From Jannaschia sp. CCS1 (GTDB lineage Bacteria; Pseudomonadota; Alphaproteobacteria; Rhodobacterales; Rhodobacteraceae): a stretch of DNA of 64,000 nt. The notes below the pieces were generated by a model that was given only the letters and a program-made list of their open reading frames with translations, did not search any database and was not told the origin of the DNA. Where the stretch lies: contig NC_007802.1 of assembly GCF_000013565.1 (NCBI RefSeq), forward strand, positions 2,914,001 through 2,978,000. Direction: 5' to 3'. This document shows positions 47,546 through 63,297 of the stretch, one piece after another. The position numbers were made by a program, and so were the translations under genes. The first letter of the stretch is position 1, and every line of letters starts with the position of its first letter.

Positions 47546-48648
47546 TGAGCGGCCTCCAGGCTGGCTTCTGCCACATCAATTGCGGGCTTTACCTTCTCGG
47601 CCAGTAGCACCATGTTGCGGCGGGCCAGATCGACATCGGCCCAATCTTTGCCCGCCACCAGAAGCGTGCCGAACTGACCGGTCTGCTCGCGGAATTGCAG
47701 CAATTCGTCGGTGACTTTCTCGGGCGTTCCCCAAATGATCAGGCGTTCGCAAACGTGATCCAGCGTCACCTCATCGTCGGGTTGATCCTTGTGTTCCTTG
47801 AACAAATTGATCCGTCCGTGCTTTTTCAGCTTGGTGAACAGCTGGCTGTAGTAGAAGCGGTAGGGGCTGTCGGGATCCGTCGCGTAGGCCCGCGCGGTGT
47901 CCATGTCGTCGGCCACGAAAACGGACTTCGCAACGCGCCAATTTGCAAGCTCTGCGGGACGGCCCGCGCGCTCACACCCCTCCACATATTTGGGCCAGTG
48001 TGAGGCGACCCATTGGGGCATCAGGAAATTGGCAGAGATCGGATCCCAGCCGCGCGCGGCGGCCTCTGTCACACCCTTGGAGAAGGGTGCGACGGCGGTC
48101 ACGACGATGGGTGGATGTGGATTATTTTGCAGCGGCTTGGGCATGATGCCTTGACCAATCTCGGTCATCGAGGTGCGCTCGGTCGAGATATTCCAATACT
48201 TGCCTTCGATGTTGTAAGGCGGGTCAGATTCCCAGATCTTCAGGACCGTGTTGATGCATTCCAGAAACATCTCCTGCCGGTCCGCATCAAGGTTCCCGAA
48301 GACCTCCGCGTCTGAGGCTAAACCCCCGGGAGATATGCCAAAATTGAAGCGCCCGTCCAACATGTGATCCAGCATCGCCACCTGTGCCGCGACGTTGGCG
48401 GGATGGCTGTTGGGCATGTTCACGGTGCCCGTGCCAAGGCGCATGTTCTTGATGGCCGAGGCCAGCGATGCGATGAACATCGTGCAGCTGACGATCTGCT
48501 CCGCGCCATCGGTCACATGTTCGCCGACATATGCTTCCGTGAAGCCCAATTCATCGGCAAGAATGAACGCCTCCCGGTCCTCGGCCAGGCACTGACGCCA
48601 GTCCTTGTCGACGGGGTGAATGGGCATTGTGAAGAACCCGAGGTCCAT
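47542..48648 (-). CDS. LLM-class flavin-dependent monooxygenase
   Basis: A 368-aa luciferase-fold protein (MDLGFFTMPIHPVDKDW start, EAYVGEHVTDG, RLGTGTVNMPNSHPANVAAQ). Such enzymes use reduced flavin from a separate reductase to oxidise cyclic ketones, limonene-type terpenes, nitrogen rings or sulfur compounds; the substrate is not evident. It is first in a two-gene operon with the alpha/beta hydrolase, and a LysR gene diverges from it. Confidence 0.85.
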   Translation of the reverse strand: MDLGFFTMPIHPVDKDWRQCLAEDREAFILADELGFTEAYVGEHVTDGAEQIVSCTMFIASLASAIKNMRLGTGTVNMPNSHPANVAAQVAMLDHMLDGRFNFGISPGGLASDAEVFGNLDADRQEMFLECINTVLKIWESDPPYNIEGKYWNISTERTSMTEIGQGIMPKPLQNNPHPPIVVTAVAPFSKGVTEAAARGWDPISANFLMPQWVASHWPKYVEGCERAGRPAELANWRVAKSVFVADDMDTARAYATDPDSPYRFYYSQLFTKLKKHGRINLFKEHKDQPDDEVTLDHVCERLIIWGTPEKVTDELLQFREQTGQFGTLLVAGKDWADVDLARRNMVLLAEKVKPAIDVAEASLEAAQ

Positions 48649-48713: not shown

Positions 48714-48797
48714 TTTGCAATAGGGTAGAGCCGCAGTTGCCCGAGGGAAAATAATAATGAATAACACTTCCCATTAGAAAAGTTGATGAGGCGGCCC

Positions 48798-49703
48798 ATG
48801 GTGACCCTGCGCCAATTGCAATCGGTTGTGGCCGTGGTGGAGGAGCGGTCCTTCACCCGTGCCGCAGACCGCGAGAATGCGACCCAATCGGGGATCTCAC
48901 AGCATGTGAAAGCGGTGGAGGCGAGCCTTGGCGTGGCGCTGTTTGAACGCACCAGCGACGGAGTCAAACCGACGCCTGCGGGCCAGCGATACTACCACCA
49001 TTGCATCGACGTGCTGCGGACCCTGGACGTGGCGAAGGATGAGGCGCGCGAGACCGGTATCGAGGTCACGGGCAAGATCCGCGCGGGGCTGATCCCGGCC
49101 TTCACCCGCGCTGCTCTGGCCCCCGCATTGGAGCGGTTCACAGCGCAATACCCGGGCGTGGAGGTGGAGGTGATCGAAGGCTACAGCGGCGCGCTGACGG
49201 ACCGGGTGCGCGCGCAGGCGCTGGACTTCGCGCTGGTGCCGGGGTTTGCGGGGGAGACCGGGTTGAAGCTGACGCATCTCAACCGGTCGCGCGAAATGCT
49301 GGTATCGGGCGCGCGGCGTGGTTTGACGCATCTGGAGCCGTTGCGCCTCGCCGATCAGCCGCCCCTGAAACTGATCGTGCCGTCGCAGTCAAACGTGCGG
49401 CGCGCGAAGATCATGGAATACGCGGAAACCCACGGCGTGCGCATTGACCGGGTGCTGGATATGGATGCGATGCTTGGGACGCTGGAACTGGTGGCGGCCA
49501 GTGACTGGGTCACGATCCTGCCCTGGGTGATTTGCAGCGCCGACGCGGCGGGCGACGTTAGGCGGGTGTCGCCGCTGATTCATCCGGAACTGCATTCGGA
49601 TTTCGTGGTGATCGAGCCCGCGCGGCGTCCCCTTCCGCCGGAGGGGCACCTGTTTCTGGATGAGATCCGCGCGGAACTGGAGCGGCTGGAGGAGCCCGCC
49701 TAG
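48798..49703 (+). CDS. LysR-family transcriptional regulator
   Basis: A 301-aa regulator with N-terminal HTH (LRQLQSVVAVVEERSFTRAADRENATQSGISQHVKAVEASLG) and a C-terminal substrate-binding domain. The ATG at 48798 is chosen over 48786 because GAGG lies six bases upstream and the domain starts there. It diverges from the monooxygenase-hydrolase operon, its most likely target. The stop overlaps that of the convergent TRAP permease gene as CTAG. Confidence 0.9.
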   Translation: MVTLRQLQSVVAVVEERSFTRAADRENATQSGISQHVKAVEASLGVALFERTSDGVKPTPAGQRYYHHCIDVLRTLDVAKDEARETGIEVTGKIRAGLIPAFTRAALAPALERFTAQYPGVEVEVIEGYSGALTDRVRAQALDFALVPGFAGETGLKLTHLNRSREMLVSGARRGLTHLEPLRLADQPPLKLIVPSQSNVRRAKIMEYAETHGVRIDRVLDMDAMLGTLELVAASDWVTILPWVICSADAAGDVRRVSPLIHPELHSDFVVIEPARRPLPPEGHLFLDEIRAELERLEEPA

Positions 49704-51016
49704 AACATGATGTCCGGCAACCACGTTGCCAGCGACGGGATGAACAGCACGATCAGCGCCGCCAGAAGGATCAGCAGGAAGTAGGGCGTGGAGCCCCAGA
49801 AGATCTGTCCCAACGTGACGGTGGGATCGGGCACAGCCCCCTTCACGGTGTAGACCAGCAAGCCGAACGGGGGCGTCAGCAGCCCGGCCTCGATCACCAG
49901 AATGCCGAAGATGGCAAACGCGATGGGGTCAATGCCAAGGATCACGGCCATGGGCGCGAAGATCGGCACGGTCAGCAGGATGATCGACACCGAGTCCACC
50001 AGCATCCCGAGGATGATCCAGATCACCATCATCATCGCGATGATCATCCACGGCTCTGCCCCGATGGAGAAGAAGATGCCCTGAATGAACGGCACCGCCC
50101 CGCCGATGGCCAAGAGCCGCGAATACATCTGGGCCGAGATCAGCAGGAACATGATCGGCGCGGTGGTGCGGCCCGCCTGATAGATCGCGTCGAGGATTTC
50201 CTTGCCACGCATCCCCTTGATCAGGCCGATGATAAACGCGCCGATGGCCCCGAACCCGGCGGCTTCCGTGGGCGTGAAGAAGCCCTGCCAGATACCGCCG
50301 ATGACCAGCATGATGAGGCCGAGAATACCGAGCCCTCCGATCAGTTCAGAGCGGATTTCCTGCCGCGTCGGCTCCACCAGATCAGCGGTGAAGGCAGGCG
50401 CGATCTCGGGCTTGTGCATGACGGAGATGACGACATACCCCGCGAACATGACGGCCAGAAGGATGCCGGGGATGATACCCGCAATGAAGAGCGCGCCGAC
50501 GCTGAGTTCCGTCAGGATCGCCCAAACAATGAGCAGGACCGAGGGCGGGATCAGCATCCCAAGGCACGCGGACCCAGCGACCGCGCCGAGCGCGAAGGTT
50601 TGCTTGTAGCCTGCCTTCTTCATCTCGGGATATGCGATGCGGGAAAACGCGGCGGCGGCGGCAATGGAAACGCCGGTGACGGCGGCAAAGACGGTGTTGC
50701 CCGCTATCGTCGCGATGGCCAGACGGCCCGGCAGGCGCTTCAGCGTGCGGTCACAAATCCGGTAAAGGTCCCCCGCCGCCCCCGACCTTGATATGAAATC
50801 CCCCATCAGGACAAAGAGGGGGATCACCACGAAGACGTCCTTCCGGATCGCCTCATAAGCGGTGTTGCCCAGGATCGAGACCGCGGCCTCAAAGCTGCCC
50901 AACATCAGGAAAACGCCGAGACCCGAGCAGACCGCAAGGGCCACGCCGATATGGGTGCCGAGCAAAATCAACAGGATCAACAGACCCAGCATCCAAAGGA
51001 CGATATCCCCACCCAT
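49700..51016 (-). CDS. TRAP transporter large permease (DctM type)
   Basis: A 438-aa membrane protein with about 12 hydrophobic segments. The family signature region AVAGSACLGMLIPPSVLLIVWA and the N-terminal FVVIPLFVLMGDFISRSG are present. With the small permease it forms the Na-driven channel for the binding protein encoded divergently at 51816. It follows the small permease gene by 12 bases. Confidence 0.93.
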   Translation of the reverse strand: MGGDIVLWMLGLLILLILLGTHIGVALAVCSGLGVFLMLGSFEAAVSILGNTAYEAIRKDVFVVIPLFVLMGDFISRSGAAGDLYRICDRTLKRLPGRLAIATIAGNTVFAAVTGVSIAAAAAFSRIAYPEMKKAGYKQTFALGAVAGSACLGMLIPPSVLLIVWAILTELSVGALFIAGIIPGILLAVMFAGYVVISVMHKPEIAPAFTADLVEPTRQEIRSELIGGLGILGLIMLVIGGIWQGFFTPTEAAGFGAIGAFIIGLIKGMRGKEILDAIYQAGRTTAPIMFLLISAQMYSRLLAIGGAVPFIQGIFFSIGAEPWMIIAMMMVIWIILGMLVDSVSIILLTVPIFAPMAVILGIDPIAFAIFGILVIEAGLLTPPFGLLVYTVKGAVPDPTVTLGQIFWGSTPYFLLILLAALIVLFIPSLATWLPDIMF

Positions 51017-51028
51017 GACGCGCGCCCC

Positions 51029-51553
51029 TTAGTCTGCGGCCACGGGCGCGATGGCCCCGGGCGCTTCGATTTCATTGTCGAGCCTGCCCTGCCAATCGAG
51101 AACGATCATGTGCAGGTAGGCCAGCGCCACGAAGGCCGACATCACCAGAACCGCGCCGCGCACGGGCCAGGTGGGCACGCGGAGAGAGCCTTCGCCTTCG
51201 TATTCGCCGATGCGGTAGGCGTCGAGGAAACTGTCACTGGTGCTCCAGACCAGGGCCACGAAGACGGTAATGCCCAGAAGCGCCGTGATCGTGCGCAGGA
51301 GGCGGCGGACAAGAGCGGGCACGGCATCGGCGAAGATGGACGTGCGCAGCATCGAGCCGGAATAGATCGCAAGCGGCAATTGCAGGAAGGCGATGGTGAC
51401 GACCGAGTTTTGCAGGATCTCTTTCGTGCCGGGCACGGGCGCCCCGAACAGCTGGCGCCCCATCACGTCCGCAAAGATCAGCAATGCCAGACCCATGGTC
51501 CAGAATGCCGAGATCAGATGGATCCCCCGCGAAATCTTGATCGGCACGCCCAT
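51029..51553 (-). CDS. TRAP transporter small permease (DctQ type)
   Basis: A 174-aa protein with four hydrophobic segments (about 9-29, 45-65, 85-105 and 127-150) and the FADVMGRQLFGAPVPGTKEI loop usual for DctQ proteins. GGAGGG precedes the ATG. It is first in the minus-strand dctQ-dctM unit, with two candidate TetR sites upstream. Confidence 0.9.
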   Translation of the reverse strand: MGVPIKISRGIHLISAFWTMGLALLIFADVMGRQLFGAPVPGTKEILQNSVVTIAFLQLPLAIYSGSMLRTSIFADAVPALVRRLLRTITALLGITVFVALVWSTSDSFLDAYRIGEYEGEGSLRVPTWPVRGAVLVMSAFVALAYLHMIVLDWQGRLDNEIEAPGAIAPVAAD

Positions 51554-51638: not shown

Positions 51639-51656
51639 ATTTAGCACTTGATAAAT
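51639..51656. promoter_or_regulatory. Candidate TetR-regulon operator, site 1 (dctQ side)
   Basis: ATTTA-N8-TAAAT: arms at 51639-51643 and 51652-51656. Same arm sequence and spacing as the perfect site at 58772. It lies upstream of the small permease gene. Confidence 0.65.
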
Positions 51657-51706
51657 AGTGGCTTTGGACGCTTGACCGAACGCCACTTTTATGAGGTGAT
51701 ATGCAA

Positions 51707-51724
51707 GATTAGCGGTCGATAAAT
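51707..51724. promoter_or_regulatory. Candidate TetR-regulon operator, site 2 (dctP side)
   Basis: GATTAGCGGTCGATAAAT keeps the right half-site CGATAAAT and the 8-base spacing; the left arm has one change. It shares the core CGGTCGAT with the site at 60015, about 90 bases before the binding-protein gene. Confidence 0.6.
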
Positions 51725-51815
51725 AAGGATGACATCTGGATAGATCACCGAATGGACCCCTTGGAAAACGGGGCTGATCGCTGACGAGACATCGTAATCA
51801 TGGGAGGAGATTAAC

Positions 51816-52892
51816 ATGGTATCAAAAGCAATCTTGCGGAGCACGGCGCTGGCCGTCACCACATTGTCACTGGGCGCGGGTGCCGCACTGGCGGAAGACT
51901 TCACGCTGCGGATCGGCGCGGGCCACCCCAACGGTCCGGCGGTTTATGTCGCTGACATGGCGGACTTTTTCGTGCCGGAAGTCGTCCGCCGCGTCGCAGA
52001 AGAGACCGAGCACACGATCACCTTCGTGGAAGGCTATGGCGGGGCAATCGCGGGCGTGGCCGAGACGCTGGAATCAGTGGAAAACGGCATCCTCGACATT
52101 GGCGGCTATTGCATGTGTTTTGAGCCGGCAAAGCTGTTCCTGCACAACTTCCCCTATTACGCACCGTTCGGCCCCCAGGATTCCGATCAGCAGATGGCCG
52201 CGACCCGCGCCGTCTACGATCAGATCCCGTGGCTGGAAGAGCAATTCACGTCTGAATACGGTCAGGTCCTTCTGGGGCTGCATGGCTGGGACAATTATCA
52301 CCTCGGCACCACGGACCCGTGGGAGACCGTTGAAGACCTGGCTGGCGTGAAGATCGGCGGCGCCGGTCCCAACCTGCCGTGGCTGGAATTCGCGGGCGCC
52401 ACGCCTGTTCAGTCCACCCTGCCCGACGGGTATCTGTCGTTGCAGACGGGCGTCTACAATGGCTGGCTGATGTTCCCGTCGGCCTACCTTGGCTTCCGGT
52501 TCTATGAGCCCGCGCCCTATTACACGCTGATCGGGTTTGGCGCGATGGGGGTGAACGCGCTGACAATGAACGAGCGGAGCCTCAACAACCTGCCGGAAGA
52601 TGTGCAGGCGATCATCCTTGAGGTCGGGGCCGCCTATGAGGCGCAGGCCGGTGGCTCGCTCAACGCGCGTCAGGTCTCGGGTCTGTCGGGCCTGGAAGAG
52701 GCCGGGGCCACGATCTCGGAAATCTCGCCAGACGTGCGCAGCGGATGGGCCGAGTCCCTGGCCACGTTCCCGGGCCAGCAAGCCGCAGAGGCCGATGGCC
52801 GTGGCATGCCGGGCACGGAGGTGATGCAGGCCTACCTCGATGCGGTGGCCGCCACCGATTACGAGTGGCCGTTCGTCTACTCCCTCAACTAA
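51816..52892 (+). CDS. TRAP transporter substrate-binding protein (DctP type)
   Basis: A 358-aa periplasmic protein with a signal peptide (MVSKAILR, hydrophobic core, likely cleavage after ALA near 26). The mature protein begins EDFTLRIGAGHPNGPAVYVADMADFFVPEV and has the GAGPNLPWLEFAGATPVQ segment of the DctP fold. It binds a carboxylate-type ligand, identity unknown. GGAGGAGA precedes the ATG. It is divergent from its permease genes. Confidence 0.92.
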   Translation: MVSKAILRSTALAVTTLSLGAGAALAEDFTLRIGAGHPNGPAVYVADMADFFVPEVVRRVAEETEHTITFVEGYGGAIAGVAETLESVENGILDIGGYCMCFEPAKLFLHNFPYYAPFGPQDSDQQMAATRAVYDQIPWLEEQFTSEYGQVLLGLHGWDNYHLGTTDPWETVEDLAGVKIGGAGPNLPWLEFAGATPVQSTLPDGYLSLQTGVYNGWLMFPSAYLGFRFYEPAPYYTLIGFGAMGVNALTMNERSLNNLPEDVQAIILEVGAAYEAQAGGSLNARQVSGLSGLEEAGATISEISPDVRSGWAESLATFPGQQAAEADGRGMPGTEVMQAYLDAVAATDYEWPFVYSLN

Positions 52893-52902
52893 GCACACCA
52901 CG

Positions 52903-52933
52903 AAAAGGGCGGCCCATCGCGGCCGCCCTTTTT
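52903..52933 (+). terminator. Intrinsic terminator after the TRAP binding-protein gene
   Basis: AAAAGGGCGGCC, a 6-base loop and GGCCGCCCTTTTT form a 12-bp stem ending in a T-run. It lies 10 bases beyond the stop. It could also attenuate the deacetylase gene that starts at 52960. Confidence 0.9.
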
Positions 52934-52959
52934 CCCTTTCCAGATCAAGGACCACTGCC

Positions 52960-53847
52960 ATGGCCCTGTCCGACCGCATTCCCTACCAAGCCATCGTGGA
53001 CCGCCCACGCCTGCACCTGCCGGGTGACAAGCGCGTCGCCGTCTGGGTGATCCTGAACGTCGAGGAATGGCGGATCGAAAACCCGATGCCGCGCACCGTT
53101 CTGCCACCGCCCATGGGCCAGCCGCTTCTGCCCGATGTCCCGAACTGGAGCTGGCATGAATATGGCATGCGATCCGGCTTCTGGCGGCAATGGAAGGCGC
53201 TGGTGGATCGCAACATCCCGGTCTCGCTGGCGATCAATGGCAACGTGTGCACCAGTTATCCGCGCGTTGCCGGGGCTGCGTTGGAGGCAGGCTGGGAGTT
53301 CATGGGCCACGGCTTCCTGCAAGGCCCGATGCACAGGCTGGACGACCAGGAGGGCGCGATTGCGCAGGCCATGGACGGTATCGAGGCGTTCTGCGGCACC
53401 CGCCCCCGGTCCTGGGAAAGCCCCGGCCTGACGGAGACGGAAGATACGCTGGATCTGCTGCGCGCCGCTGGCGTGGACTACGTCGCGGATTGGGTCATCG
53501 ACGATCTGCCACAGGACATCGACACGCCCCATGGGCGCATCACCACCCTGCCCTATTCGGTGGAAACTAACGACATTGCTGTCTACGCGCTACAAGGCCA
53601 CCGATCTGATGAATTCCTGACCCGCGGGCGCGATCAGTTTGACCGGCTCTATGCGGAGGGGGCGGAGAACGCGCGGGTCATGGCGATTTCGATCCACCCC
53701 TATATCACCGGCGTGCCACATCGCATCCGCTATCTGGAAGAGCTGCTGGATTATGTCGGTGGCCATGAGGGCACGGCGTGGATGACCGCGAGCGAGATTG
53801 GCGATTGGTATCGCGCTGAGATGGCGCGGATAGACGGAGGCACATGA
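52960..53847 (+). CDS. Polysaccharide deacetylase-fold protein, PuuE-like
   Basis: A 295-aa CE4/NodB-fold protein. The first motif reads VAVWVILNVEEW (27-38) and later motifs include MGHGFLQGPMHRLDDQEG and ISIHPYITGVPHRIRYLEELL, which fit the PuuE-like (allantoinase/urate-pathway) branch rather than sugar deacetylases. It probably hydrolyses a small amide or imide. The start at 52960 has AAGGA upstream. It overlaps the next cupin gene (ATGATG). Confidence 0.82.
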   Translation: MALSDRIPYQAIVDRPRLHLPGDKRVAVWVILNVEEWRIENPMPRTVLPPPMGQPLLPDVPNWSWHEYGMRSGFWRQWKALVDRNIPVSLAINGNVCTSYPRVAGAALEAGWEFMGHGFLQGPMHRLDDQEGAIAQAMDGIEAFCGTRPRSWESPGLTETEDTLDLLRAAGVDYVADWVIDDLPQDIDTPHGRITTLPYSVETNDIAVYALQGHRSDEFLTRGRDQFDRLYAEGAENARVMAISIHPYITGVPHRIRYLEELLDYVGGHEGTAWMTASEIGDWYRAEMARIDGGT

Positions 53848-54380
53848 TGGACATTACCGACATCAGCGTGGAGGAGATGCAGGCGCGCGTCGCCCGCTAC
53901 CGGGAGTTGAAAGCCTCACCGCAAGCCTTCGTGGATACGCGCATCCCGGACTATGAGCGCGACATCTACAACGTGATCGGACGCGGCGTGACGGAAGATG
54001 CGGACCTTGCCCCTTCGATCGCGGACTCGCGTTACTTTTCAATCACCTATGTGGGCGCGGAGCCGGGTAAGGGCGCAGCGCTCCATGCCCATGAGACGAT
54101 TGAAGTATTCATCCCGCTCGTCGGTCGTTGGGCGGCCTATTGGGGCGAGGATGGCGACAAGGAGATCGAGATTGAGCCGTTCGACGTCATTTCCTTCCCG
54201 CCGGGCATCTACCGGGGGTTTCGCAACATCGGAGACGCGCCCGGGATGCTGATGGCGATTATCGGATCGAAGGAGGCGACGGGGGACGGTGGCCGTGTCG
54301 ACTGGGCCCCGAGCGTTCTGGAACAAAGCCACGCGACAGGTCTGCGGGTCAACGACGCGGGCGATCTGGAAGACGGGTAG
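53844..54380 (+). CDS. Cupin-domain protein (178 aa)
   Basis: A single-domain cupin with an N-terminal helical lead. Motif 1 is HAHETIEVFIPLVGRWAAYWG and motif 2 is IEPFDVISFPPGIYRGFRNIG; the second histidine position is replaced, so metal binding may be weaker. The start overlaps the deacetylase stop, so they act together. I cannot name a reaction. Confidence 0.8.
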   Translation: MMDITDISVEEMQARVARYRELKASPQAFVDTRIPDYERDIYNVIGRGVTEDADLAPSIADSRYFSITYVGAEPGKGAALHAHETIEVFIPLVGRWAAYWGEDGDKEIEIEPFDVISFPPGIYRGFRNIGDAPGMLMAIIGSKEATGDGGRVDWAPSVLEQSHATGLRVNDAGDLEDG

Positions 54381-54381
54381 C

Positions 54382-54410
54382 GCCTGCCCGAACGCGCGGT
54401 CCGGGCAGGC
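54382..54410. terminator. Hairpin between convergent cupin and GST genes
   Basis: GCCTGCCCG (54382-54390) and CGGGCAGGC (54402-54410) form a perfect 9-bp stem with an 11-base loop, directly between two convergent stops. No T-run, but its position suits a bidirectional terminator. Confidence 0.6.
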
Positions 54411-54421
54411 AAGACGCGGGC

Positions 54422-55045
54422 CTAGGCCACGCCTTCCAACTTGCGATTGGCTTGTACGGCGGGGCGTTGCTTCATCCGCTCGTAATGGGCTTTGACATTG
54501 GGGGGCAGATCCCATCCGCCCACGTCGACGGCCCAATATTCGTTGTAGTAAAGTGCCGTGTCCGCGATGGAATAATCATCGCCCATCACCCAGACTTTGC
54601 CTTCCAACTGCTCATCCACCATATCGAAGGCTGCCATCATCGCGTCCTTGCCGCGCACTTTCAACTGCTCGACCGCCTCGGGGATGTCCGAATAGGCGTC
54701 GGGGCGGCGGTACATGCGCCAGGACAGCATGTGGATGGTGCCAATGGCGAAATCCATCGCCTCGACGGTGCGCACCATGCCCTCGGCATCCGTGGGCATC
54801 AGGTTCTTGTCCGGGTTCTCCAACGCCAAGGCCATGGCAATTGCCGTGTATTCCGTGATGACGGAGCCGTCGTCACGCACCAGCGCCGCGACCTTGCCCT
54901 TGGGGTTGATCGCCAGATATTCGGGGTCCTTCTGCTCTTTCTTGGAGAAGTCGACGATCTTGAGATCGTAGGGTTTGCCGATCTCCTCCATCAACACGTG
55001 GATACCGATGGAGCAGGTTTTCTTGGCATAACAAAGCGTGGTCAT
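54422..55045 (-). CDS. Glutathione S-transferase family protein
   Basis: A 207-aa protein with an N-terminal thioredoxin-like domain (LCYAKKTCSIGIHVLMEEIG, NPKGKVAALV, then the Glu-Tyr pair of VITEYTAIAMAL) and a C-terminal helical domain ending DYSIADTALYY. The ACS-type segment near residue 11 suggests the beta-class layout. It follows the molybdenum hydroxylase large-subunit gene by 17 bases and may be in that operon. A role in isomerisation or thiolysis of a pathway intermediate is possible but not shown. Confidence 0.85.
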   Translation of the reverse strand: MTTLCYAKKTCSIGIHVLMEEIGKPYDLKIVDFSKKEQKDPEYLAINPKGKVAALVRDDGSVITEYTAIAMALALENPDKNLMPTDAEGMVRTVEAMDFAIGTIHMLSWRMYRRPDAYSDIPEAVEQLKVRGKDAMMAAFDMVDEQLEGKVWVMGDDYSIADTALYYNEYWAVDVGGWDLPPNVKAHYERMKQRPAVQANRKLEGVA

Positions 55046-55062
55046 GGGGTCTTCCTTGGTGA

Positions 55063-57441
55063 TTATACGGTGCCGAGGGCTTTCAGAATCCGCTCGGGCG
55101 TCATTGGCATTTGATGGATGGACGCGCCCAGGGGACGCAGGGCGTCATTGACGGCGTTCATCAACGCGGCAGGCGCGCCGCCGGTTCCGGCCTCCCCCGC
55201 GCCCTTTGCGCCGAGGACGCTTGTTTTGGTGGGCGTCTCAACGTGGGCCACGGTGATATCGGGCATCTCGAAGGCCATGGGCACGAGGTAGTCGGCCATG
55301 GTGGCGTTTTCCAGCTGGCCATCCTCGGAATAGATGCATTCCTCGTAGAACGCGCCGCCGATGCCCTGGACGACACCGCCGCGGATCTGTTCATCCACCA
55401 GCGTGGGGTTGATGACCCGACCACAATCTTCCACCGCCCAGACGTTGAGAACCTGCACAAAGCCCGTCTCCGGGTCCAGCTCGATCTCGGCGGCCATGGC
55501 GGCGTTGGTGAAGACGAAGGGGAAATCCGTGACGCGGAAATGGCGGGTGGCGACGAGCTCTGGTGCCATGTCGGACGGCAGTTCATTGCCGCGATAATAC
55601 ACCGTGCGCGCCAGATCCGTGAGGCTGATGCGTTGCGTGGTGGTGCCCAGGTCCACGACATGTCCGTCAACGATATCAAGCACATCGGGCTTGGCTTGCA
55701 GGATCACTCCGGCCACGTCCAGCACCTGTTCCTTGAGCGCATGGGCGGCTTGCAACGTCGCCTCCCCGCCAATGCCTGCCCCGCGTGACGCCCAGGTGCC
55801 ACCGCCATAGGGCGTGGTTTTGGTATCACCGGTTGTGACTTTCACGCGGTCCATATGGACGCCGAAGACGCCCGCCGCGATCTGGGCGAGGATGGTGTTG
55901 GTGCCCTGCCCCTGTTCGGTCACCGACGAGCTGACATGGATCGCGCCGCCCGCGTCCAAACGAATGGTGGACCCGTCCTGGCTGGCGATGGGCGCACCGC
56001 CGATGCCGTAGAACATCGGGCTGGGATTGGTGACTTCGATCATCGACACGATACCCAGACCGCGGTGGATGCCCTGGTCGCGCAATTTGGCATGTTCGGC
56101 GCGTTTTGCGTCGTAGTCCATCGTGTCCACCAGCAGATCAAGCGTCTTGTGATGGGACAGATCATCGAGCTTCATGCCCGTGGCCGAGACGGTCGGATAG
56201 GCATCATCTTTTACAAGATTTCGGCGGCGGATCGCCACCACATCCATCCCGATTTCCGCCGCTGCGTCTTCCAGCAGGCCATCGGCCACGGCCATGGCAA
56301 TCGGGTGACCCACCGCGCGGTATTGGCACATCAGGTTCTTGTTCTGGAACACGACCTTGGCGTTGGCGCGGTAGTTCTCCAGCGCATAGGGCGCGCCGGT
56401 CAGGTTGAGGACCTGGTTCGCCTCAATCGCTGAGGTGCGCGGATACATGGAATAGGGGCCGATGCCGGTGATGTCATCAAAGGCCAGCGCGGCGATGGTG
56501 CCGTCCTCCGTCACGGCGATGCGCCCGTGGACGACATGATCGCGGGCGTGGATGTCTGTCAGGAAGCTCTCCAACCGATCCGCCACGAACTTCACCGGGC
56601 GTCCCAACAGTTTCGCCGCCGCCGCAGTTGCGATTTCATCGCCGTAGGTGTGGATCTTGATGCCGAAAGACCCGCCGACATCATTGGAGATGACGCGCAC
56701 GTTTTCCTCCGCGAGGCCCAGATGCTTGGCGAAGATGAACTGCATCATGTGGGGGGCCTGGCCGGAGTAATGGCAGGTCAGCAGATCCTCCGACGGGTCG
56801 TATTCGACGACGCTTGCGCGGGTCTCCAACGTCACGCCGGTATGGCGACCGAAGCGAAACGTCCGCTCCACTACGGTCACGTCATCCCGGGCAAACGCCG
56901 CGTCCGGGTCGCCCGCCTCAACCGTCCGCTCCCACGCAAGATTGCTGCCCATATCGGGGTGGATCACCGGGGCGTCCGCATCCAGCGCGCGTTCCATATC
57001 TGTGGCAACGGGCAGGTCTTCGATGTCCACAAACACCAGCGCCGCCGCGTCTTCGGCGATGGCGCGCGAGGTGGCGACGATCATCACAACGGGCTCTCCG
57101 GTCCAGCGGACTGTGTCCACGGCCAGCGGCATTTGCGGGGCCGAGCGCAGGCCTGCCAGATGGGACAGGACGCCGACATAGGGCTCCACATGCTCAGCCA
57201 GATCTGCGCCGGTGTAGATCGCGATCACGCCGGGCACGTCCCGCGCCTCGTCCAGATCAAGGGAGAGGATGCGCCCGTGCGCGACGGGCGACCGGACAAA
57301 GGCCGCATGGACCATGCGGGGCAATTGCAGATCATCGACAAACTTGCCGCGGCCTTGCAACAGGCGCTTCGCATCGGGGCGCGCCACGGCCTTTCCGATA
57401 TAAGAATTGGGCTTGTCGAAGATCGTCAGGGGGCCGCTCAT
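55063..57441 (-). CDS. Molybdenum hydroxylase, large (molybdopterin) subunit
   Basis: A 792-aa xanthine oxidase-family subunit. It starts IGKAVARPDAKRLLQGRGKFVDD and has VGGSFGIK, the substrate-loop CQYRAVGHP and the catalytic glutamate E750 in KGAGEAGTGG. The CO dehydrogenase active-site loop (AYRCSFR) is absent, so it is not a true CoxL. It should hydroxylate a heteroaromatic or aldehyde carbon using water. The start overlaps the small-subunit stop (ATGA). Confidence 0.92.
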   Translation of the reverse strand: MSGPLTIFDKPNSYIGKAVARPDAKRLLQGRGKFVDDLQLPRMVHAAFVRSPVAHGRILSLDLDEARDVPGVIAIYTGADLAEHVEPYVGVLSHLAGLRSAPQMPLAVDTVRWTGEPVVMIVATSRAIAEDAAALVFVDIEDLPVATDMERALDADAPVIHPDMGSNLAWERTVEAGDPDAAFARDDVTVVERTFRFGRHTGVTLETRASVVEYDPSEDLLTCHYSGQAPHMMQFIFAKHLGLAEENVRVISNDVGGSFGIKIHTYGDEIATAAAAKLLGRPVKFVADRLESFLTDIHARDHVVHGRIAVTEDGTIAALAFDDITGIGPYSMYPRTSAIEANQVLNLTGAPYALENYRANAKVVFQNKNLMCQYRAVGHPIAMAVADGLLEDAAAEIGMDVVAIRRRNLVKDDAYPTVSATGMKLDDLSHHKTLDLLVDTMDYDAKRAEHAKLRDQGIHRGLGIVSMIEVTNPSPMFYGIGGAPIASQDGSTIRLDAGGAIHVSSSVTEQGQGTNTILAQIAAGVFGVHMDRVKVTTGDTKTTPYGGGTWASRGAGIGGEATLQAAHALKEQVLDVAGVILQAKPDVLDIVDGHVVDLGTTTQRISLTDLARTVYYRGNELPSDMAPELVATRHFRVTDFPFVFTNAAMAAEIELDPETGFVQVLNVWAVEDCGRVINPTLVDEQIRGGVVQGIGGAFYEECIYSEDGQLENATMADYLVPMAFEMPDITVAHVETPTKTSVLGAKGAGEAGTGGAPAALMNAVNDALRPLGASIHQMPMTPERILKALGTV

Positions 57442-57911
57442 GCCTGCACCTTTCCGTCGATGACATCACAGACGGCATCCACGATGGACTGGTATCCCGT
57501 GCACCGACAATAATTGCCCGACAGATGTTCGCGGATCGCCGTGCGGTCAGCCGTACCGCCGCCTTCCACGTATTCCACCGCGCTGGCCAACATCCCTGGC
57601 GTGCAGTAGCCGCATTGCAGGGCGTTGCGCTCGGTGAAGGCCGCGCGCAGGGCGCTTGCCCGGTCCCCGTATCCCTCAATCGTGGTGATCGCCGCGCCGT
57701 CGGCCTGCACCGCCAGCATGAGGCAACCACGGACCATCGCGCCGTCAACCTCCAGCGTGCAGGCCCCGCAGACGCCGTGTTCGCAGCCCACATGGCTGCC
57801 GGTTAAACCAAGGGTATTGCGGAGAAAATCCACGAGGTTCTGGCGCACCGGAACAGCGGCACTGGTGGTCTCACCATTCACGGTGACCGAGATCATTCTG
57901 CTGTCTGACAT
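57438..57911 (-). CDS. Molybdenum hydroxylase, [2Fe-2S] small subunit
   Basis: A 157-aa two-cluster ferredoxin subunit. The plant-type cluster uses C43, C48, C51 and C63; the second uses C100, C103, C135 and C137 (CGYCTPG and CRC). All eight ligands are present. It passes electrons from the molybdenum centre to the FAD subunit. It lies between the FAD and large-subunit genes. Confidence 0.95.
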   Translation of the reverse strand: MSDSRMISVTVNGETTSAAVPVRQNLVDFLRNTLGLTGSHVGCEHGVCGACTLEVDGAMVRGCLMLAVQADGAAITTIEGYGDRASALRAAFTERNALQCGYCTPGMLASAVEYVEGGGTADRTAIREHLSGNYCRCTGYQSIVDAVCDVIDGKVQA

Positions 57912-57914
57912 GAC

Positions 57915-58736
57915 CTACAAACCTTCCAATGCGCGTTTAAGGACGATGCCCGAGAGATGCCGTTTCGTCGCCTCGCCCGCATTCAGATCACCGGCGAAGG
58001 GCAGATCCGCAAGCGCCGCGACGGCCTCATCGGCAGGGCCGCCCGCATCCAGCACAGTCTCAACCGCATGGGCGCGCAGGGCGCGGTCGGCGATGCTGAA
58101 AAAGGCGACGCGGTGGTCGGTTTGATCCGCAGCGCAAGACACCGCAACGCCCGTCATCGCGTAATCTCCGTGACGGCGGGCGAGTTCATAGAACGCAAAG
58201 CGCCGCGTTGGCGCTCGCGGGATGGTGATTGCGGTCACAAGCTCCCCCTCCTCCAGCGCCGTCTCATACATCCCCAGAAAGAAATCCTGAGCCGCGTGGG
58301 TCTTTTCGCCATCCGAGGACTGCACCGTCACCTCTGCATCCAGCGCCAGCAGCAGCGCGGGCATTTCAGCCGCCGGGTCCGCCAGCGCCACGCTACCGCC
58401 GATCGTGCCCCGGTTGCGGACGGCGGCATGTGCGATGTGCGGCAGGGCCATCGCCAGAAGCGGCGCATGCTCCGACACAAGATCCGAGCCCGCGAGGTCC
58501 ACATACCGCGTCATTGCCCCGATGCGCAGCGCATCATCCTCCAAGGTGATCCCGCGCAGATCATCGAGAGCCGACAGGTCAATCAACGTGCCCGGTTGCG
58601 CCAGCCGGAAATTCATCATCGGCATCAGACTTTGACCACCCGCCAGGGGGGCGGCGTCCCGATCTTCATCGGCCAGAAGCGCCAGGGCGTCCGGCAGGGA
58701 TGTCGGTCGTTCATACTGAAAATCGGCAGCTTTCAT
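57915..58736 (-). CDS. Molybdenum hydroxylase, FAD subunit
   Basis: A 273-aa CoxM/KdhM-type subunit with the FAD motif AGGQSLMPMMNFRLAQP near residue 31 and the second TIGGSVALADPAAEMP near 111. It is first of the three subunit genes; the order FAD, [2Fe-2S], molybdopterin matches several heteroaromatic hydroxylases and CO dehydrogenase-like enzymes. A perfect copy of the TetR palindrome lies 36-53 bases upstream of its ATG. Confidence 0.93.
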   Translation of the reverse strand: MKAADFQYERPTSLPDALALLADEDRDAAPLAGGQSLMPMMNFRLAQPGTLIDLSALDDLRGITLEDDALRIGAMTRYVDLAGSDLVSEHAPLLAMALPHIAHAAVRNRGTIGGSVALADPAAEMPALLLALDAEVTVQSSDGEKTHAAQDFFLGMYETALEEGELVTAITIPRAPTRRFAFYELARRHGDYAMTGVAVSCAADQTDHRVAFFSIADRALRAHAVETVLDAGGPADEAVAALADLPFAGDLNAGEATKRHLSGIVLKRALEGL

Positions 58737-58771
58737 GGGTCCCCCGTCGGCATGATCATCCGCACGGGCTA

Positions 58772-58789
58772 ATTTATCGAAAGATAAAT
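58772..58789. promoter_or_regulatory. Candidate TetR-regulon operator, site 3 (molybdenum hydroxylase promoter)
   Basis: ATTTATC-GAAA-GATAAAT, a perfect 7+7 inverted repeat and the best copy of the motif in the cluster. It lies just upstream of the FAD-subunit gene, where a bound repressor would block the promoter. Confidence 0.75.
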
Positions 58790-58832
58790 AACTAGCAAGC
58801 CCATTCTGAACTGGTCCGGGTGGAGGGTCGCG

Positions 58833-59498
58833 CTAGCGGTTGGCCTCGGCGCGGACGGCCGTGATATGACCCAAGAAGCTGTCAATCGCCGTCTCAATCA
58901 CAAAGCTTTTGTTGTTGAGCACCGACGCCTCGTAAATGATCGTCCGCACGCCGTAATAGAAAATGCCGCCATGCATAATCCAGGCAAATTCCACTTCCTC
59001 GTCGGTTGGGGTCAGCTCGTCCATCCCCGCTTCATGGCGCAGCTCCGACAGGATCGGTTCCAGAATTCGGGCGCGCACCAGGGCCATGTAGCGGCGGTTG
59101 ATATCGACCCCCTTGAGGCCCGAGAACAGGAAGATGCGCATCCAGTCGTTGTGGAAAACCACGTCTGTGTAGGCGTGGTAGAATTCGGAAAGCCGCTCTC
59201 GCATCGGGCGCGAGCGGTCGGTCAGCAAGTCAGCCCATTCATCCCGCCACCGCTTCACATAGACCGCGTCGTAGACCTCTGAGATCAAGTCGTTCTTGGA
59301 CGGAAAGTAGCGGTACAGCAGGGGCTGCGTGACCCCAAGACGCCGCGCCAGTTCCCGGGTTGAGGATTCGAACCCCTCCTGGGCGAAAAACTCTATGGCT
59401 TTGGTCAGGAATTCCTGCCGCCGCTCCTCGGACGCCATGCGGCGACGCGGTTGCGGTCGCACCTCGGTGGGGGCTTCATCATTCACGCATCGACCCAT
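58833..59498 (-). CDS. TetR-family transcriptional regulator
   Basis: A 221-aa regulator with the N-terminal HTH at about 46-65 (STRELARRLGVTQPLLYRYFPSKNDL) and a helical ligand domain. Its start lies within the last codons of the OsmC-family gene, so the two are co-transcribed. It is the only regulator inside the part of the cluster that carries the ATTTATC-N4-GATAAAT palindromes, including one before its own operon, so it is the likely binder. Ligand unknown. Confidence 0.92.
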   Translation of the reverse strand: MGRCVNDEAPTEVRPQPRRRMASEERRQEFLTKAIEFFAQEGFESSTRELARRLGVTQPLLYRYFPSKNDLISEVYDAVYVKRWRDEWADLLTDRSRPMRERLSEFYHAYTDVVFHNDWMRIFLFSGLKGVDINRRYMALVRARILEPILSELRHEAGMDELTPTDEEVEFAWIMHGGIFYYGVRTIIYEASVLNNKSFVIETAIDSFLGHITAVRAEANR

Positions 59499-59971
59499 TC
59501 ATTGCCCAGTTTCAAGCGGTGCCCAACGATCACGCCCGTGGCCAGGCTCTGTTCGATGAAACACCCCTTTTTCGCAGCATTGAGTAATTCGTGAAGCTGG
59601 TCTGGTGTCGCATCACTGTCGATGTCCACATCCAGCCCGAAGGCCACGGGGTCGGTCACGTAGGGATCATTGCCGACCTGCTCGCCCTTCCAATGCAGGC
59701 GCGCGCCCACCTCAACCCCGCGGATATCAATCTTCAGACGCTTGGCGAACGCCCGGATCTGGGTCATCAGACAGCCCGTGAGCGCCGCGGTGAACAGCGC
59801 CAGCGGCGGGGGCGCGGTGCCGTCACCGCCATGGAACGGGCCTTCATCAGTGGCCAGCTCAAACCTTTCCTTCATCATCGGCCATTCGACCGAGATATCA
59901 TTGCGCATCTTGCCGGTTGCGGTGCCTTTGCCTTCAAAAATCACATCAAATGTCTTGGTTGCCTCAGCCAT
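59483..59971 (-). CDS. OsmC/Ohr-family protein
   Basis: A 162-aa OsmC-fold protein with both conserved cysteines, C67 (TGCLMTQ) and C137 (KKGCFIEQ), so thiol-dependent reduction of organic hydroperoxides is plausible. It is first in the OsmC-TetR unit and divergent from the cyclase-family gene. It may protect against peroxides formed by the oxygenases of the cluster. Confidence 0.88.
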   Translation of the reverse strand: MAEATKTFDVIFEGKGTATGKMRNDISVEWPMMKERFELATDEGPFHGGDGTAPPPLALFTAALTGCLMTQIRAFAKRLKIDIRGVEVGARLHWKGEQVGNDPYVTDPVAFGLDVDIDSDATPDQLHELLNAAKKGCFIEQSLATGVIVGHRLKLGNEWVDA

Positions 59972-60014
59972 GTCGCGCCCCTGTTGCTTGCGTGTTCAGC
60001 AAAGGCTAGCATCT

Positions 60015-60032
60015 ATTTATCGGTCGATCATT
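60015..60032. promoter_or_regulatory. Candidate TetR-regulon operator, site 4 (OsmC/cyclase divergent region)
   Basis: ATTTATCGGTCGATCATT, inside the 22-bp dyad CTA...TAG at 60013-60034. The left half-site is exact, the right has two changes, and the spacing is the same as in the other copies. Confidence 0.65.
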
Positions 60033-60091
60033 AGTCTTTTTCGGAACAGGTTCCGGAAGGCATCAAGACCGTTATGTTTGGGAGGAAAATC

Positions 60092-61048
60092 ATGGCAAAG
60101 CTGACCCGTCAGGACATATACGACACCGCGAAAGAGCTGTCGAACTGGGGCCGTTGGGGCGAGGATGACCAGATCGGCACGCTGAACAATGTCTCGCCCG
60201 AGGATATCGTCGCGGCGGCGGGGCTGGTGCGAAAGGGCAAGACCTTCGCGCTGGGGCTGGACCTGAAGGAGAAGATCCAGTCGGGCCTGTTCGGCGGGCG
60301 GTGGAACATGATCCACCAGATGCTGGCCACCGGCACCGACGCGGTAACCGGCGAGCAGGACGGCGATGGCAAGGCCTACTTGCGCTACGCCGATGATGCG
60401 ATCAACCTGCCGTGTCAGGGCAGCACGCAATGGGACGCGCTGTGTCACATCTTCCTCGATGATCAGATGTATAACGGATACCCGGCGACGGACGTGACCG
60501 TGAACGGCGCGAAACGACTGGGGATCGAGCATGTGCGCGACAAGATGGTCGGGCGCGGGGTGCTGCTGGATATTGCGCGGTGGAAGGGCGTGGACAGTCT
60601 GGACGATGGATATGGCATCACCAACGCCGATCTGGATGGCTGCGCCGAGGCGCAGGGGGTTGAGATCCGCAAAGGCGATTTCGTGATCGTGCGCACCGGG
60701 CATCAGGAGCGGTGCCTGAGCGCAGGGGATTGGGCCGGCTACGCAGGCGGTGACGCGCCGGGCCTGTCGTTCGAGACGGCCCGCTGGATCAAGGGCCACG
60801 ACATCGCCGCGATCTGTGCCGACACCTGGGGCTGCGAGGTGCGCCCGAATGAGACGGATGAGGCCAACCAGCCGTGGCATTGGGTCGTCATTCCAGCCAT
60901 CGGCATCTCCATGGGCGAGATCTTTTACCTCAAGGAATTGGGAGAGGATTGCGCGCAGGACGGCGTCTACGAATTCCTTTTCACCGCGCCGCCGCTACAC
61001 ATTCCGGGGGCAGCGGGCTCTCCGATCAACCCGCAAGCGATCAAGTGA
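60092..61048 (+). CDS. Cyclase-family (KynB-like) metal-dependent hydrolase
   Basis: A 318-aa protein of the bacterial cyclase/kynurenine formamidase fold. The metal motif region reads QGSTQWDALCH at 109-119, corresponding to HxGTHxDxPxH in KynB with a Q for one His. FVIVRTGHQERC and a late QPWHWVVIP are also family features. It probably hydrolyses an amide, formamide or lactone. The ATG at 60092 has GGGAGG upstream. GST-like gene follows ten bases later. Confidence 0.83.
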   Translation: MAKLTRQDIYDTAKELSNWGRWGEDDQIGTLNNVSPEDIVAAAGLVRKGKTFALGLDLKEKIQSGLFGGRWNMIHQMLATGTDAVTGEQDGDGKAYLRYADDAINLPCQGSTQWDALCHIFLDDQMYNGYPATDVTVNGAKRLGIEHVRDKMVGRGVLLDIARWKGVDSLDDGYGITNADLDGCAEAQGVEIRKGDFVIVRTGHQERCLSAGDWAGYAGGDAPGLSFETARWIKGHDIAAICADTWGCEVRPNETDEANQPWHWVVIPAIGISMGEIFYLKELGEDCAQDGVYEFLFTAPPLHIPGAAGSPINPQAIK

Positions 61049-61058
61049 GGGCGGGCAA

Positions 61059-61643
61059 GTGATCCTCTGGGGACGGCCCTCTTCGGTCAATGTTCAGAAG
61101 GTGATGTGGGCGCTGGCTGAGCGTCGCACGGCCTATGAGCACCGCATCGTGGGCGGCAAATACGGCGGCACGGACACGGCGGAATTCGCCATCATGTCCC
61201 CGGTGCCGCGCGTGCCTGTCTTGCAGGACGGAGACCTCACGCTGTGGGAAAGTCATGCGATCCTGCGGCATTTGGCGGGCGGTGTTGAACCGCCGACGGA
61301 TCAGTGGATGGAATACGCCACGTCCACCCTGCAACCGGCCTTCCTGCGTCTGTTTTATGAGGTCGTGCGCACCGCGCCTGTCGACCGCATGCAGGACGCT
61401 GACGCGCTGATTGCCGGTTTCCTCGCCGCCGTGCCTCCGCTGGAATGGCAGTTGGAAAAAACCCAATGGCTCGGCGGCAGCAAGTTCGGCATGGCCGACA
61501 TCGCCGCAGGCGCGATGATGTACCGCGCCTGTGCCCTCTGCGACCTGCTCAGCCCGCAAGTCACGCGGTGGTACGGGCAATTGCAGGAGCGGCCCGCCTA
61601 CCGGGACATCGTCATGACATCCTACGAGGAACTGCGGGCCTAG
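61059..61643 (+). CDS. Glutathione S-transferase-like protein (GTG start)
   Basis: A 194-aa GST. It opens ILWGRPSSVNVQKVMWALAE, with the conserved VPRVPVLQDGDLTLWESHAILRHLA and the C-terminal KFGMADIAAGAMMYR. The only start beginning the domain is GTG at 61059, with GAGGG seven bases upstream. It follows the cyclase-family gene closely. A role as a glutathione-dependent isomerase or conjugating enzyme in the pathway is possible. Its stop overlaps that of the convergent monooxygenase gene (CTAG). Confidence 0.85.
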   Translation: MILWGRPSSVNVQKVMWALAERRTAYEHRIVGGKYGGTDTAEFAIMSPVPRVPVLQDGDLTLWESHAILRHLAGGVEPPTDQWMEYATSTLQPAFLRLFYEVVRTAPVDRMQDADALIAGFLAAVPPLEWQLEKTQWLGGSKFGMADIAAGAMMYRACALCDLLSPQVTRWYGQLQERPAYRDIVMTSYEELRA

Positions 61644-62830
61644 AAATCCGCCACGGCGGTCAGACGAATGATCTCTTCCATGTTGGGATTGTTGCGCCCA
61701 TCCGTTGGGTCGCCTGTTTCTGGGGCTTGCATCATATGCCGACCCAACATCTGCGACCGCTCATAGGCGGCCCTCGACAACGGCACCCGCTCAGCGGAAT
61801 AGGCCTGCAAGCCTGTCACCAGTTCGCCGGCCGCGTGTCGCGCAAGGGCCAGCGCATCCTGCGCGGCCTTCGTCACCCCCATCCCCACATGGGGCCGCGC
61901 CACGCAGGCTGCATCGCCGGACAAGGCAACGCGTCCGCGCGCAAAGGTCGGCGACAGGTGATCATAGATCGGCGTGAAAAACGGCCTCTCACTATTGTCG
62001 AGAATGTGGCGGAAGACATCGGGCAGCACCCTGGCGGCCATCTCCTCCACGCGCGCCAGCACCTCATCCCGCACCAGCGGCGGCGGAATGGAGATTGCGT
62101 GGGTCTGGCCGCTGTCATCTGTCAACATATCGTCCAGATCCGCATCGGGCGCGGGCACGTACCAGACGAAGTTGTAGCGTCGGTGGCCGGGGCGCAGGTC
62201 ATTGTTCTCCCCCGCAATCGGGTAGCCCACGATCTGCGTACCCTGGGGCATGAACATGCCGAAGACATCGAAGATGCGGTCCCGCATCTCGGGCGACAGA
62301 TCCGCCTCCAGCGCCAGCGCGCGCCAAACGACGTAGCCCGCATAGGCGGGCTGAACATCGGGCAACATCTGGGCCCGCACGGCAGACCGGAAGCCATCTG
62401 CGCCCACCAGCAGATCAACGCGCGCCTCGCGTCCACTCTCAAACCGCGCGGTCACACCGTCGTCATCCTCGGCAAACTCGGCCAGCATCTCGCCCAGATG
62501 ATAATCCTCATCGGGGATCAGGCGGCGGAGGGTCTGATACATGCGATCCCAGGACGTCACGATTTGGCGGTAAGGCAGCGTATGGAAGTGGCTGCCCGCG
62601 TGATCAAAGACCACCCGGTCGTCAACCTGCACCCCAAGATCCGACGTATCCGCGCCGACCTGCGCCAGTGCGTCGAGCAGGTGCCGATGCGTCACGATCC
62701 CGGCCCCCCGCCCCGAGAGCGGCACACCCACCCGCTCGAACACCTGCACGCGCCATCCCGCGCGCCGTAGGGCCGCCGCCGCAAACAGGCCGCCGATGGA
62801 GCCTCCGATTACTGCCGCCGTGCCTGCCAT
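61640..62830 (-). CDS. FAD-dependent monooxygenase, 2,6-dihydroxypyridine hydroxylase-like
   Basis: A 396-aa group A flavin monooxygenase. FAD motif GGSIGG is at 9-14, followed by the distinctive PLSGRGAGIVTHRHLLDAL, later YAGYVVWRAL and the SGDAACVARPHVGMGV loop. These features fit the 2,6-dihydroxypyridine 3-hydroxylase (DhpH) branch better than salicylate or 3-hydroxybenzoate hydroxylases. Hydroxylation of a pyridine-like ring is inferred. A candidate TetR site lies between it and the divergent cupin gene. Confidence 0.85.
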   Translation of the reverse strand: MAGTAAVIGGSIGGLFAAAALRRAGWRVQVFERVGVPLSGRGAGIVTHRHLLDALAQVGADTSDLGVQVDDRVVFDHAGSHFHTLPYRQIVTSWDRMYQTLRRLIPDEDYHLGEMLAEFAEDDDGVTARFESGREARVDLLVGADGFRSAVRAQMLPDVQPAYAGYVVWRALALEADLSPEMRDRIFDVFGMFMPQGTQIVGYPIAGENNDLRPGHRRYNFVWYVPAPDADLDDMLTDDSGQTHAISIPPPLVRDEVLARVEEMAARVLPDVFRHILDNSERPFFTPIYDHLSPTFARGRVALSGDAACVARPHVGMGVTKAAQDALALARHAAGELVTGLQAYSAERVPLSRAAYERSQMLGRHMMQAPETGDPTDGRNNPNMEEIIRLTAVADF

Positions 62831-62862
62831 GTGACGCTCTCCTGATCCCTCTTCCCATCCTT

Positions 62863-62880
62863 ATTTATCACTCTATAATT
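62863..62880. promoter_or_regulatory. Candidate TetR-regulon operator, site 5 (monooxygenase/cupin divergent region)
   Basis: ATTTATCACTCTATAATT keeps the exact left half ATTTATC and four of five bases of the right arm at the same spacing. It lies 33 bases upstream of the monooxygenase ATG and 28 bases before the cupin ATG. Confidence 0.6.
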
Positions 62881-62907: not shown

Positions 62908-63297
62908 ATGACACAAATTGCACCCTTTGACGGACCCCACTGGACGCCTGAGCTGATTGATGAACTGGAGGAGGGTCGCAAAAGCGGCGCTGTCGGCTCC
63001 ACACTGGTCAGCAAAAGCGACCGCGCGAATGTCTGGTTGATCGAGATGCAGCCGGGTGATCGCCTGCCCTTCCACACCCATGTGCTGGATTACTTCTGGG
63101 TCGCCACCACGCCGGGCCGCGCGCGGTCCCGCTATGCCGATGGGACAGTGGCTGAGGTGGATTACGAGGTCGGAACCACCAGGCATTTCACCTTCAAGGA
63201 CGGCGAAAGCATGACCCATGACCTTGAAAACATTGGCGATACAGTCTTGTGCTTCACTACGGTCGAATACCTCGACAGCGCAAATCAGCCCCTATAG
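62908..63297 (+). CDS. Cupin-domain protein (129 aa)
   Basis: A small single-domain cupin with PFHTHVLDYFWV as the first metal motif and TRHFTFKDGESMTHDLENIGD as the second. The ATG at 62908 has GGAGG nine bases upstream. The open frame before it is a shadow of the divergent monooxygenase gene. Its stop abuts the convergent oxidoreductase stop as CTATAG. Function not identifiable beyond the fold. Confidence 0.82.
   Translation: MTQIAPFDGPHWTPELIDELEEGRKSGAVGSTLVSKSDRANVWLIEMQPGDRLPFHTHVLDYFWVATTPGRARSRYADGTVAEVDYEVGTTRHFTFKDGESMTHDLENIGDTVLCFTTVEYLDSANQPL

Follow-up and report, generated by a model that had tools for sequence, protein, structure and literature searches.

A catabolic gene island of Jannaschia sp. 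CCS1 (NC_007802.1) carries five palindromes of the type ATTTATC-N4-GATAAAT in its promoter regions, and we propose, with a probability of roughly 0.88, that the TetR-family regulator encoded within the island (58833..59498, minus strand) binds them as a local repressor controlling the whole island. The window, i.e. the whole 64-kb stretch that was analysed, spans positions 2,914,001–2,978,000, and island coordinates refer to it. The sites, their conservation in relatives and their covariation with the recognition helix of the regulator can be read directly from the DNA and protein sequences, and it is from these that we infer binding and repression. An earlier, sequence-only reading of the window had tied an importer, a molybdenum (Mo) hydroxylase, a monooxygenase, hydrolases and glutathione S-transferases (GSTs) into one regulon; the rarity of the motif, its conservation in orthologous promoters and its co-occurrence with TetRs of the same recognition helix all support this view.

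Sequence, position and rarity of the palindromes

The five palindromes of the sequence-only reading were all confirmed at its coordinates, starting at 51639, 51707, 58772, 60015 and 62863. Its description of ATTTA and TAAAT arms with a common 8-base spacing needs correction: one dyad spacing is shared by all five, but the exact arms occur only at 51639 and 58772, and the left arm at 51707–51724 is GATTA instead of ATTTA. Two sites are located in the dctQ/dctP gap (262 bp), operator 1 (51639..51656, ATTTAGCACTTGATAAAT, 1 mismatch, matrix score 29.5) and operator 2 (51707..51724, GATTAGCGGTCGATAAAT, 3 mismatches, matrix score 21.1, the lowest of the five). Operator 3 (58772..58789), upstream of the Mo-hydroxylase operon in the moM/TetR gap (96 bp), is the perfect palindrome reported earlier, with 0 mismatches. 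Operator 4 (60015..60032, 2 mismatches, score 22.3), the candidate autoregulation site, lies in the divergent OsmC-TetR/cyclase gap (114 bp), and operator 5 (62863..62880, 2 mismatches, score 27.1), with TATAAT within its right half, in the divergent FMO/cupinB gap (77 bp). All copies are therefore confined to promoter gaps, as had been stated, and these four gaps together make up 549 bp of a 13.6-kb region that runs from dctM to cupinB.

At up to 3 mismatches the window contains 6 matches, against 0.47 expected, and none of 100 shuffles reached 6; the sixth match (18872) is outside the island. In the complete genome the pattern has 11 distinct sites at up to 2 mismatches, 4 of them in the island (the pattern read backwards gives 1), and 43 at up to 3 mismatches, including the five island sites and 18872 (backwards: 7), counts that are partly circular because the pattern was derived from these very sites. 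From 76 sites at 25 loci of other genomes, excluding the window, we also derived a symmetric matrix; it is not wholly independent, since its sites were gathered with the pattern at up to 2 mismatches. Among the 43 own-genome candidates, the only ones scored, the five island sites rank first (29.5, 27.1, 26.9, 22.3 and 21.1; next 19.2), and the next best score anywhere in the 64 kb is 9.5. The motif, which could have been as common elsewhere in the genome, is thus rare outside the island. None of the seven off-island sites at up to 2 mismatches is a clear promoter site, 1998977 and 2055664 being less certain: C2:1995671 is inside a channel-like open reading frame (ORF), 1432090 falls in a short inter-ORF gap, and each of the other five is overlapped by at least one mechanically called ORF of at least 80 aa. 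When palindromes were sought de novo immediately upstream of close TetRs, the motif did not emerge, a failure probably explained by the position of the operator, which stands upstream of OsmC and not of TetR.

Conservation in relatives

Homologues of the regulator (E≤1e-30) are present in 44 of 394 genomes of the family, its own genome counted, and the cyclase (E≤1e-90) in 19 of the 394. Orthologous promoters were compared at 25 loci, drawn from 19 genomes or records; the window was excluded and known duplicates were dropped, although two close relatives, L041 and L051, both remained. Of the 75 target stretches, 61 have the motif with up to 2 mismatches; among 125 stretches upstream of other island genes it occurs in one. 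This comparison, made in other species, is less circular than the own-genome counts. The order of letters matters as well: the true half-site accounts for the 61 stretches, while 104 other orders of the same letters reach at most 10 of 75. The pair of sites between dctQ and dctP is also common in relatives, whose gaps at this threshold (n=15) hold two sites in 11 cases, one in 3 and none in 1.

Where islands are split, sites stay with the genes, namely with cupinB in genome G065, moM in G165 and FMO/cupinB in G284; the perfect site before the cupinB homologue of G065 is ~384 kb from its TetR. Changed gene order likewise leaves the site at FMO (genomes G168 and G370). According to our reading, 28 of the 29 distinct sites with at most 1 mismatch in 15 TetR genomes adjoin homologues of island genes, counting one in G199 that stands before a divergent Mo hydroxylase, and one (G387) does not. 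On four Rhizobium/Ancylobacter plasmids, out of seven with a cyclase at least 77% identical, TetR (52–55%), cyclase and sites persist next to mostly different neighbours, and the site is found between TetR and cyclase in 4/4 of the plasmids examined. This G199 site (L086:9716-9733, 1 mismatch), on another contig, precedes a divergent Mo-hydroxylase subunit that may be an additional regulon member.

Covariation of recognition helix and operator

The case for TetR as the binder now goes beyond proximity, because the operator covaries with the recognition helix. For 58 TetR loci, that of the window among them, we looked for operators with at most 2 mismatches no further than 1.5 kb away. The ATTTATC-N4-GATAAAT operator is nearby in 27 of 29 loci with the helix TQPL[LI]YRYF, and ATTGATC-N4-GATCAAT in 13 of 14 loci with TQSL[LI]F[NK]YF (L023–L027, L030–L032, L034, L113, L115, L117–L119); within the same set and distance, neither was found at loci with other helices (0/15). 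The residues that differ between the two classes (P59 to S, Y62 to F, R63 to N or K) are all within helix 58–64 of the structure model, and each half-site differs by one base (ATTTATC vs ATTGATC). Because the two patterns differ at only two positions, some crossover occurs at this threshold, with the second pattern in 5/29 first-class loci and the first in 2/14 second-class loci.

Counts over complete genomes point in the same direction. A site with at most 1 mismatch occurs in 14/15 genomes with close same-helix TetRs, in 5/5 with distant ones (39–45% identity; four of the five were already known to have a site near TetR), in 2/16 without a TetR match at E≤1e-30, and in 0/14 drawn for the second helix class, including G035 with the variant TQSLLFRYF. 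Fisher tests on such counts ignore relatedness, and the groups are not pure, since six TetR-bearing genomes hold two TetR homologues (G084 has one of each class). Genome-wide counts of the ATTGATC operator at up to 1 mismatch (9/14 second-helix genomes vs 17/32 others) were discarded as proof of association, being too noisy; only the position beside TetR is informative. In a tree built without the helix residues the second class forms one clade (100/99), so its helix switch is a single evolutionary event; the first class needs 2 changes (9 ungrouped rows left out), L022 being uncertain from long branches.

Several further observations concern these classes. Distant TetRs with the first helix (L134–L137, stretches of 19.9 kb) have the operator between dctQ and dctP in 4/4 cases, together with homologues of TRAP, LLM, alpha-beta hydrolase and GST genes and with no Mo-hydroxylase or cyclase match. 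Second-class TetRs in the wider stretches L138–L141 adjoin other Mo-hydroxylase and TRAP genes. A third helix, SQRLLYRFF, has GTCGTCA-N2-TGACGAC-like palindromes nearby in 4/6 loci (L126, L129, L130 and L131), possibly a third operator. We tentatively lean towards regarding this TetR subfamily as a natural operator-specificity code, in which three helix types would have switched together with their operators and rewired whole catabolic regulons. Such a natural switch would be more interesting than the local regulon itself.

The TetR protein

The proposed binder has a helix-turn-helix domain of PF00440 (51.6 bits vs a cutoff of 24; E 8e-14), with the recognition helix within T57–F65 (TQPLLYRYF). 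Its structure model (mean pLDDT 82.7) is all-helical, the third helix comprising residues 58–64, and Foldseek gives a chain of the TetR family as its best match (E 3.2e-5). Of 16 NCBIfam TetR families matched at E≤0.001 (FasR, AcuR, RutR, BetI, KstR, TetR and others), none reaches its curated cutoff, the best score for a named TetR being 38.9 bits vs a cutoff of 330. Self-control, typical of TetR-type regulators, is indicated by the palindrome at 60015 upstream of OsmC-tetR, a promoter class conserved in relatives: the OsmC and TetR genes overlap by 16 nt, probably forming one operon, and with this site preceding the pair the regulator should control itself. As had been claimed, TetR is the sole regulator among the genes annotated between the outermost palindromes; a LysR gene (48783-49703) stands just outside.

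Mechanism and alternative explanations

The most likely mechanism is a local repressor that controls its own gene and lets go of its sites in response to a pathway compound. A TetR dimer would fit one recognition helix (TQPLLYRYF) into each ATTTATC half-site. It would thereby sit at or next to the promoters of seven presumed units: dctQM, dctP-puuE-cupinA, moMSL-GST1, OsmC-tetR, cyclase-GST2, FMO and cupinB. In the absence of substrate, TetR would repress the island and its own gene until the imported compound, or an intermediate of the pathway, released it; importer, hydroxylase, monooxygenase and hydrolases would then come on together.

Several observations weigh against this model. No site was found in 14 of the 75 target promoter stretches; the same-helix TetRs L019 and L121 have none within 1.5 kb (the genome of L121, G151, has a perfect one 3.9 kb from TetR), and genome G366 has sites only at up to 2 mismatches and none at up to 1. 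Conversely, the two TetR-less genomes that contribute to the 2/16 bear one site each, and genome G030 keeps a site (24.0) before FMO/cupinB with no TetR found, where the contig starts 34 bases before the cyclase and the neighbouring gene may therefore be missing from the assembly. The TetR search in G030 and in G014 (discussed below) had no positive control there, although the same query matched 44 genomes elsewhere. The coxMSL genes on the Rhizobium leguminosarum plasmid pRL8 are without a site at up to 2 mismatches, though coxMSL responds to the same rhizosphere as the cyclase homologue described below. A promoter scan gave no excess, with 4 promoter-like sites vs 3.1 in shuffles. Finally, steric block is less obvious at dctQ, because operator 1 is just upstream of its TTGACC-like box, and a TTGAC-like box stands likewise in most relatives.

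The last point also bears on how TetR would act. If this box is the −35 of dctQ, as is probable, the regulator could activate some promoters, or both activate and repress, and dual roles have a precedent in the nicotine-catabolism regulator NdpR, at least in the title of a cited paper. We nevertheless regard activation as unlikely in view of the other promoters: across an alignment of 18 moM promoters that includes the window, a CTTG box precedes the site, which would lie over both spacer and −10 (the −10 by our reading), while the cupinB site contains TATAAT and is overlapped by one promoter-like match, both being repressor-like positions.

That a protein other than TetR binds the palindromes, either the LysR that flanks the island, also in several relatives, or an unlinked factor, seems very improbable to us. 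Such a factor would leave unexplained why the operator changes along with the recognition helix of TetR and is missing from the 14 genomes drawn for the other helix, and on the Rhizobium plasmids the operator stands beside TetR though any LysR matched was only 25–26% alike. Still less credence can be given to chance or to AT-rich elements shared by promoters in general. Some palindrome halves do overlap −10-like sequence, but both halves are conserved, reordered half-sites fall far short of the true one, and other upstream stretches of the island genes have hardly any site (1/125). Moreover, the island of genome G014, with an 87% identical cyclase, Mo-hydroxylase and LLM genes and no TetR match at E≤1e-12, lacks the operator, its best matrix score across three 19.9-kb stretches being 9.5. 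Repression by TetR remains our preferred explanation.

Genes of the island

The TRAP importer consists of the large membrane subunit DctM (49700..51016, minus strand, PF06808), the small membrane subunit DctQ (51029..51553, minus, PF04290) and the solute-binding protein DctP (51816..52892, plus, PF03480). DctP is followed by a PuuE-like hydrolase of the polysaccharide deacetylase fold (52960..53847, plus, PF01522; TIGR03212 below cutoff) and a cupin, cupinA (53844..54380, plus, PF07883). The minus strand then encodes the GST-like GST1 (54422..55045) and the Mo-hydroxylase, with its large subunit moL (55063..57441; best solved match quinoline 2-oxidoreductase, 1t3q), 2Fe-2S subunit moS (57438..57911) and FAD subunit moM (57915..58736). 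Beyond TetR lie the OsmC-like protein (59483..59971, minus, PF02566; NF041052 above cutoff) and a cyclase-family hydrolase (60086..61048, plus, PF04199), which is among the most conserved enzymes of the island (83–93% identity in relatives' islands carrying one, except loci L055, 78%, and L057, 70%). The right end comprises the GST-like GST2 (61053..61643, plus, PF02798), the FAD monooxygenase FMO (61640..62830, minus; best solved match 2,6-dihydroxypyridine hydroxylase, 2vou) and cupinB (62908..63297, plus), a small protein named a cupin in the sequence-only reading, whose homologues adjoin FMO in many relatives and which matches no Pfam family at 1e-3 (translation scanned from 62905).

An LLM monooxygenase/alpha-beta hydrolase pair (46751-48648) comes after dctM in several relatives' islands. 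In the window the oppositely oriented LysR gene stands between this pair and dctQM, and the pair has no operator at up to 3 mismatches, so it may have changed regulator.

Function of the island and its counterpart on pRL8

The island probably breaks down a ring compound. The best solved match of the LLM protein is 3,6-diketocamphane monooxygenase and that of the cyclase the uncharacterised protein 5ibz; taken together, the best solved relatives and the TRAP importer suggest that an N-heteroaromatic acid is oxidised and its ring opened. Homarine was considered as substrate and set aside: titles and abstract openings offered no literature link to these genes.

The pea-rhizosphere region of pRL8 in R. 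leguminosarum 3841 (pRL80021-38) resembles the island in having homologues of TetR (54%) and of the cyclase (78%), with two sites adjoining them, but has an ABC transporter in place of TRAP, and other enzymes. PMC3333776 reports that pRL80036 is induced six- to ten-fold by the pea rhizosphere, and from gene order it appears to be the cyclase homologue of R. leguminosarum. Judged likewise by gene order, this homologue corresponds to the N-formylkynurenine formamidase of that paper. It has an operator in front (NC_008383.1 37000-39000; L100, L133), a testable prediction in a laboratory strain.

Comparison with known systems

The island now has a candidate operator, regulator and regulon, and related TetR-cyclase modules on Rhizobium plasmids. 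No description of the operator, the island or the helix/operator pair was found in the literature searched, which was mostly non-subscription and surveyed by listed entries. Knowing which compound frees the purified regulator would give a lead to the substrate of the island.

The halves of tetO, the operator of tetracycline-resistance TetR, also contain TATC/GATA, and Gln-Pro likewise occurs close to the start of the recognition helix of that TetR; the spacing in tetO is one base shorter than in the island palindromes. The island regulator shares the helix-turn-helix family with this TetR (PRK13756 matches residues 27–86, E 2.5e-7), but at 30.8 bits it is far below the cutoff of 265. Control of a local catabolic regulon by a TetR is an established type of system. 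NicR2 of Pseudomonas putida S16 is, in the consulted portion of PMC5500553, a TetR-family member in nicotine degradation, and NdpR of Sphingomonas melonis TY, known to us from a reference title, is likewise a TetR-family regulator of N-heterocycle catabolism; compared at the level of gene content, the island differs in its TRAP importer, cyclase, LLM monooxygenase and PuuE-like hydrolase. Our use of inverted repeats conserved beside regulator homologues resembles operator prediction of the Snowprint type as described in the part of PMC10858194 available to us, which deals with one operator per regulator, whereas we followed an entire regulon together with a helix switch. The paired helix/operator classes offer a small, directly testable case of a change in TetR DNA specificity.

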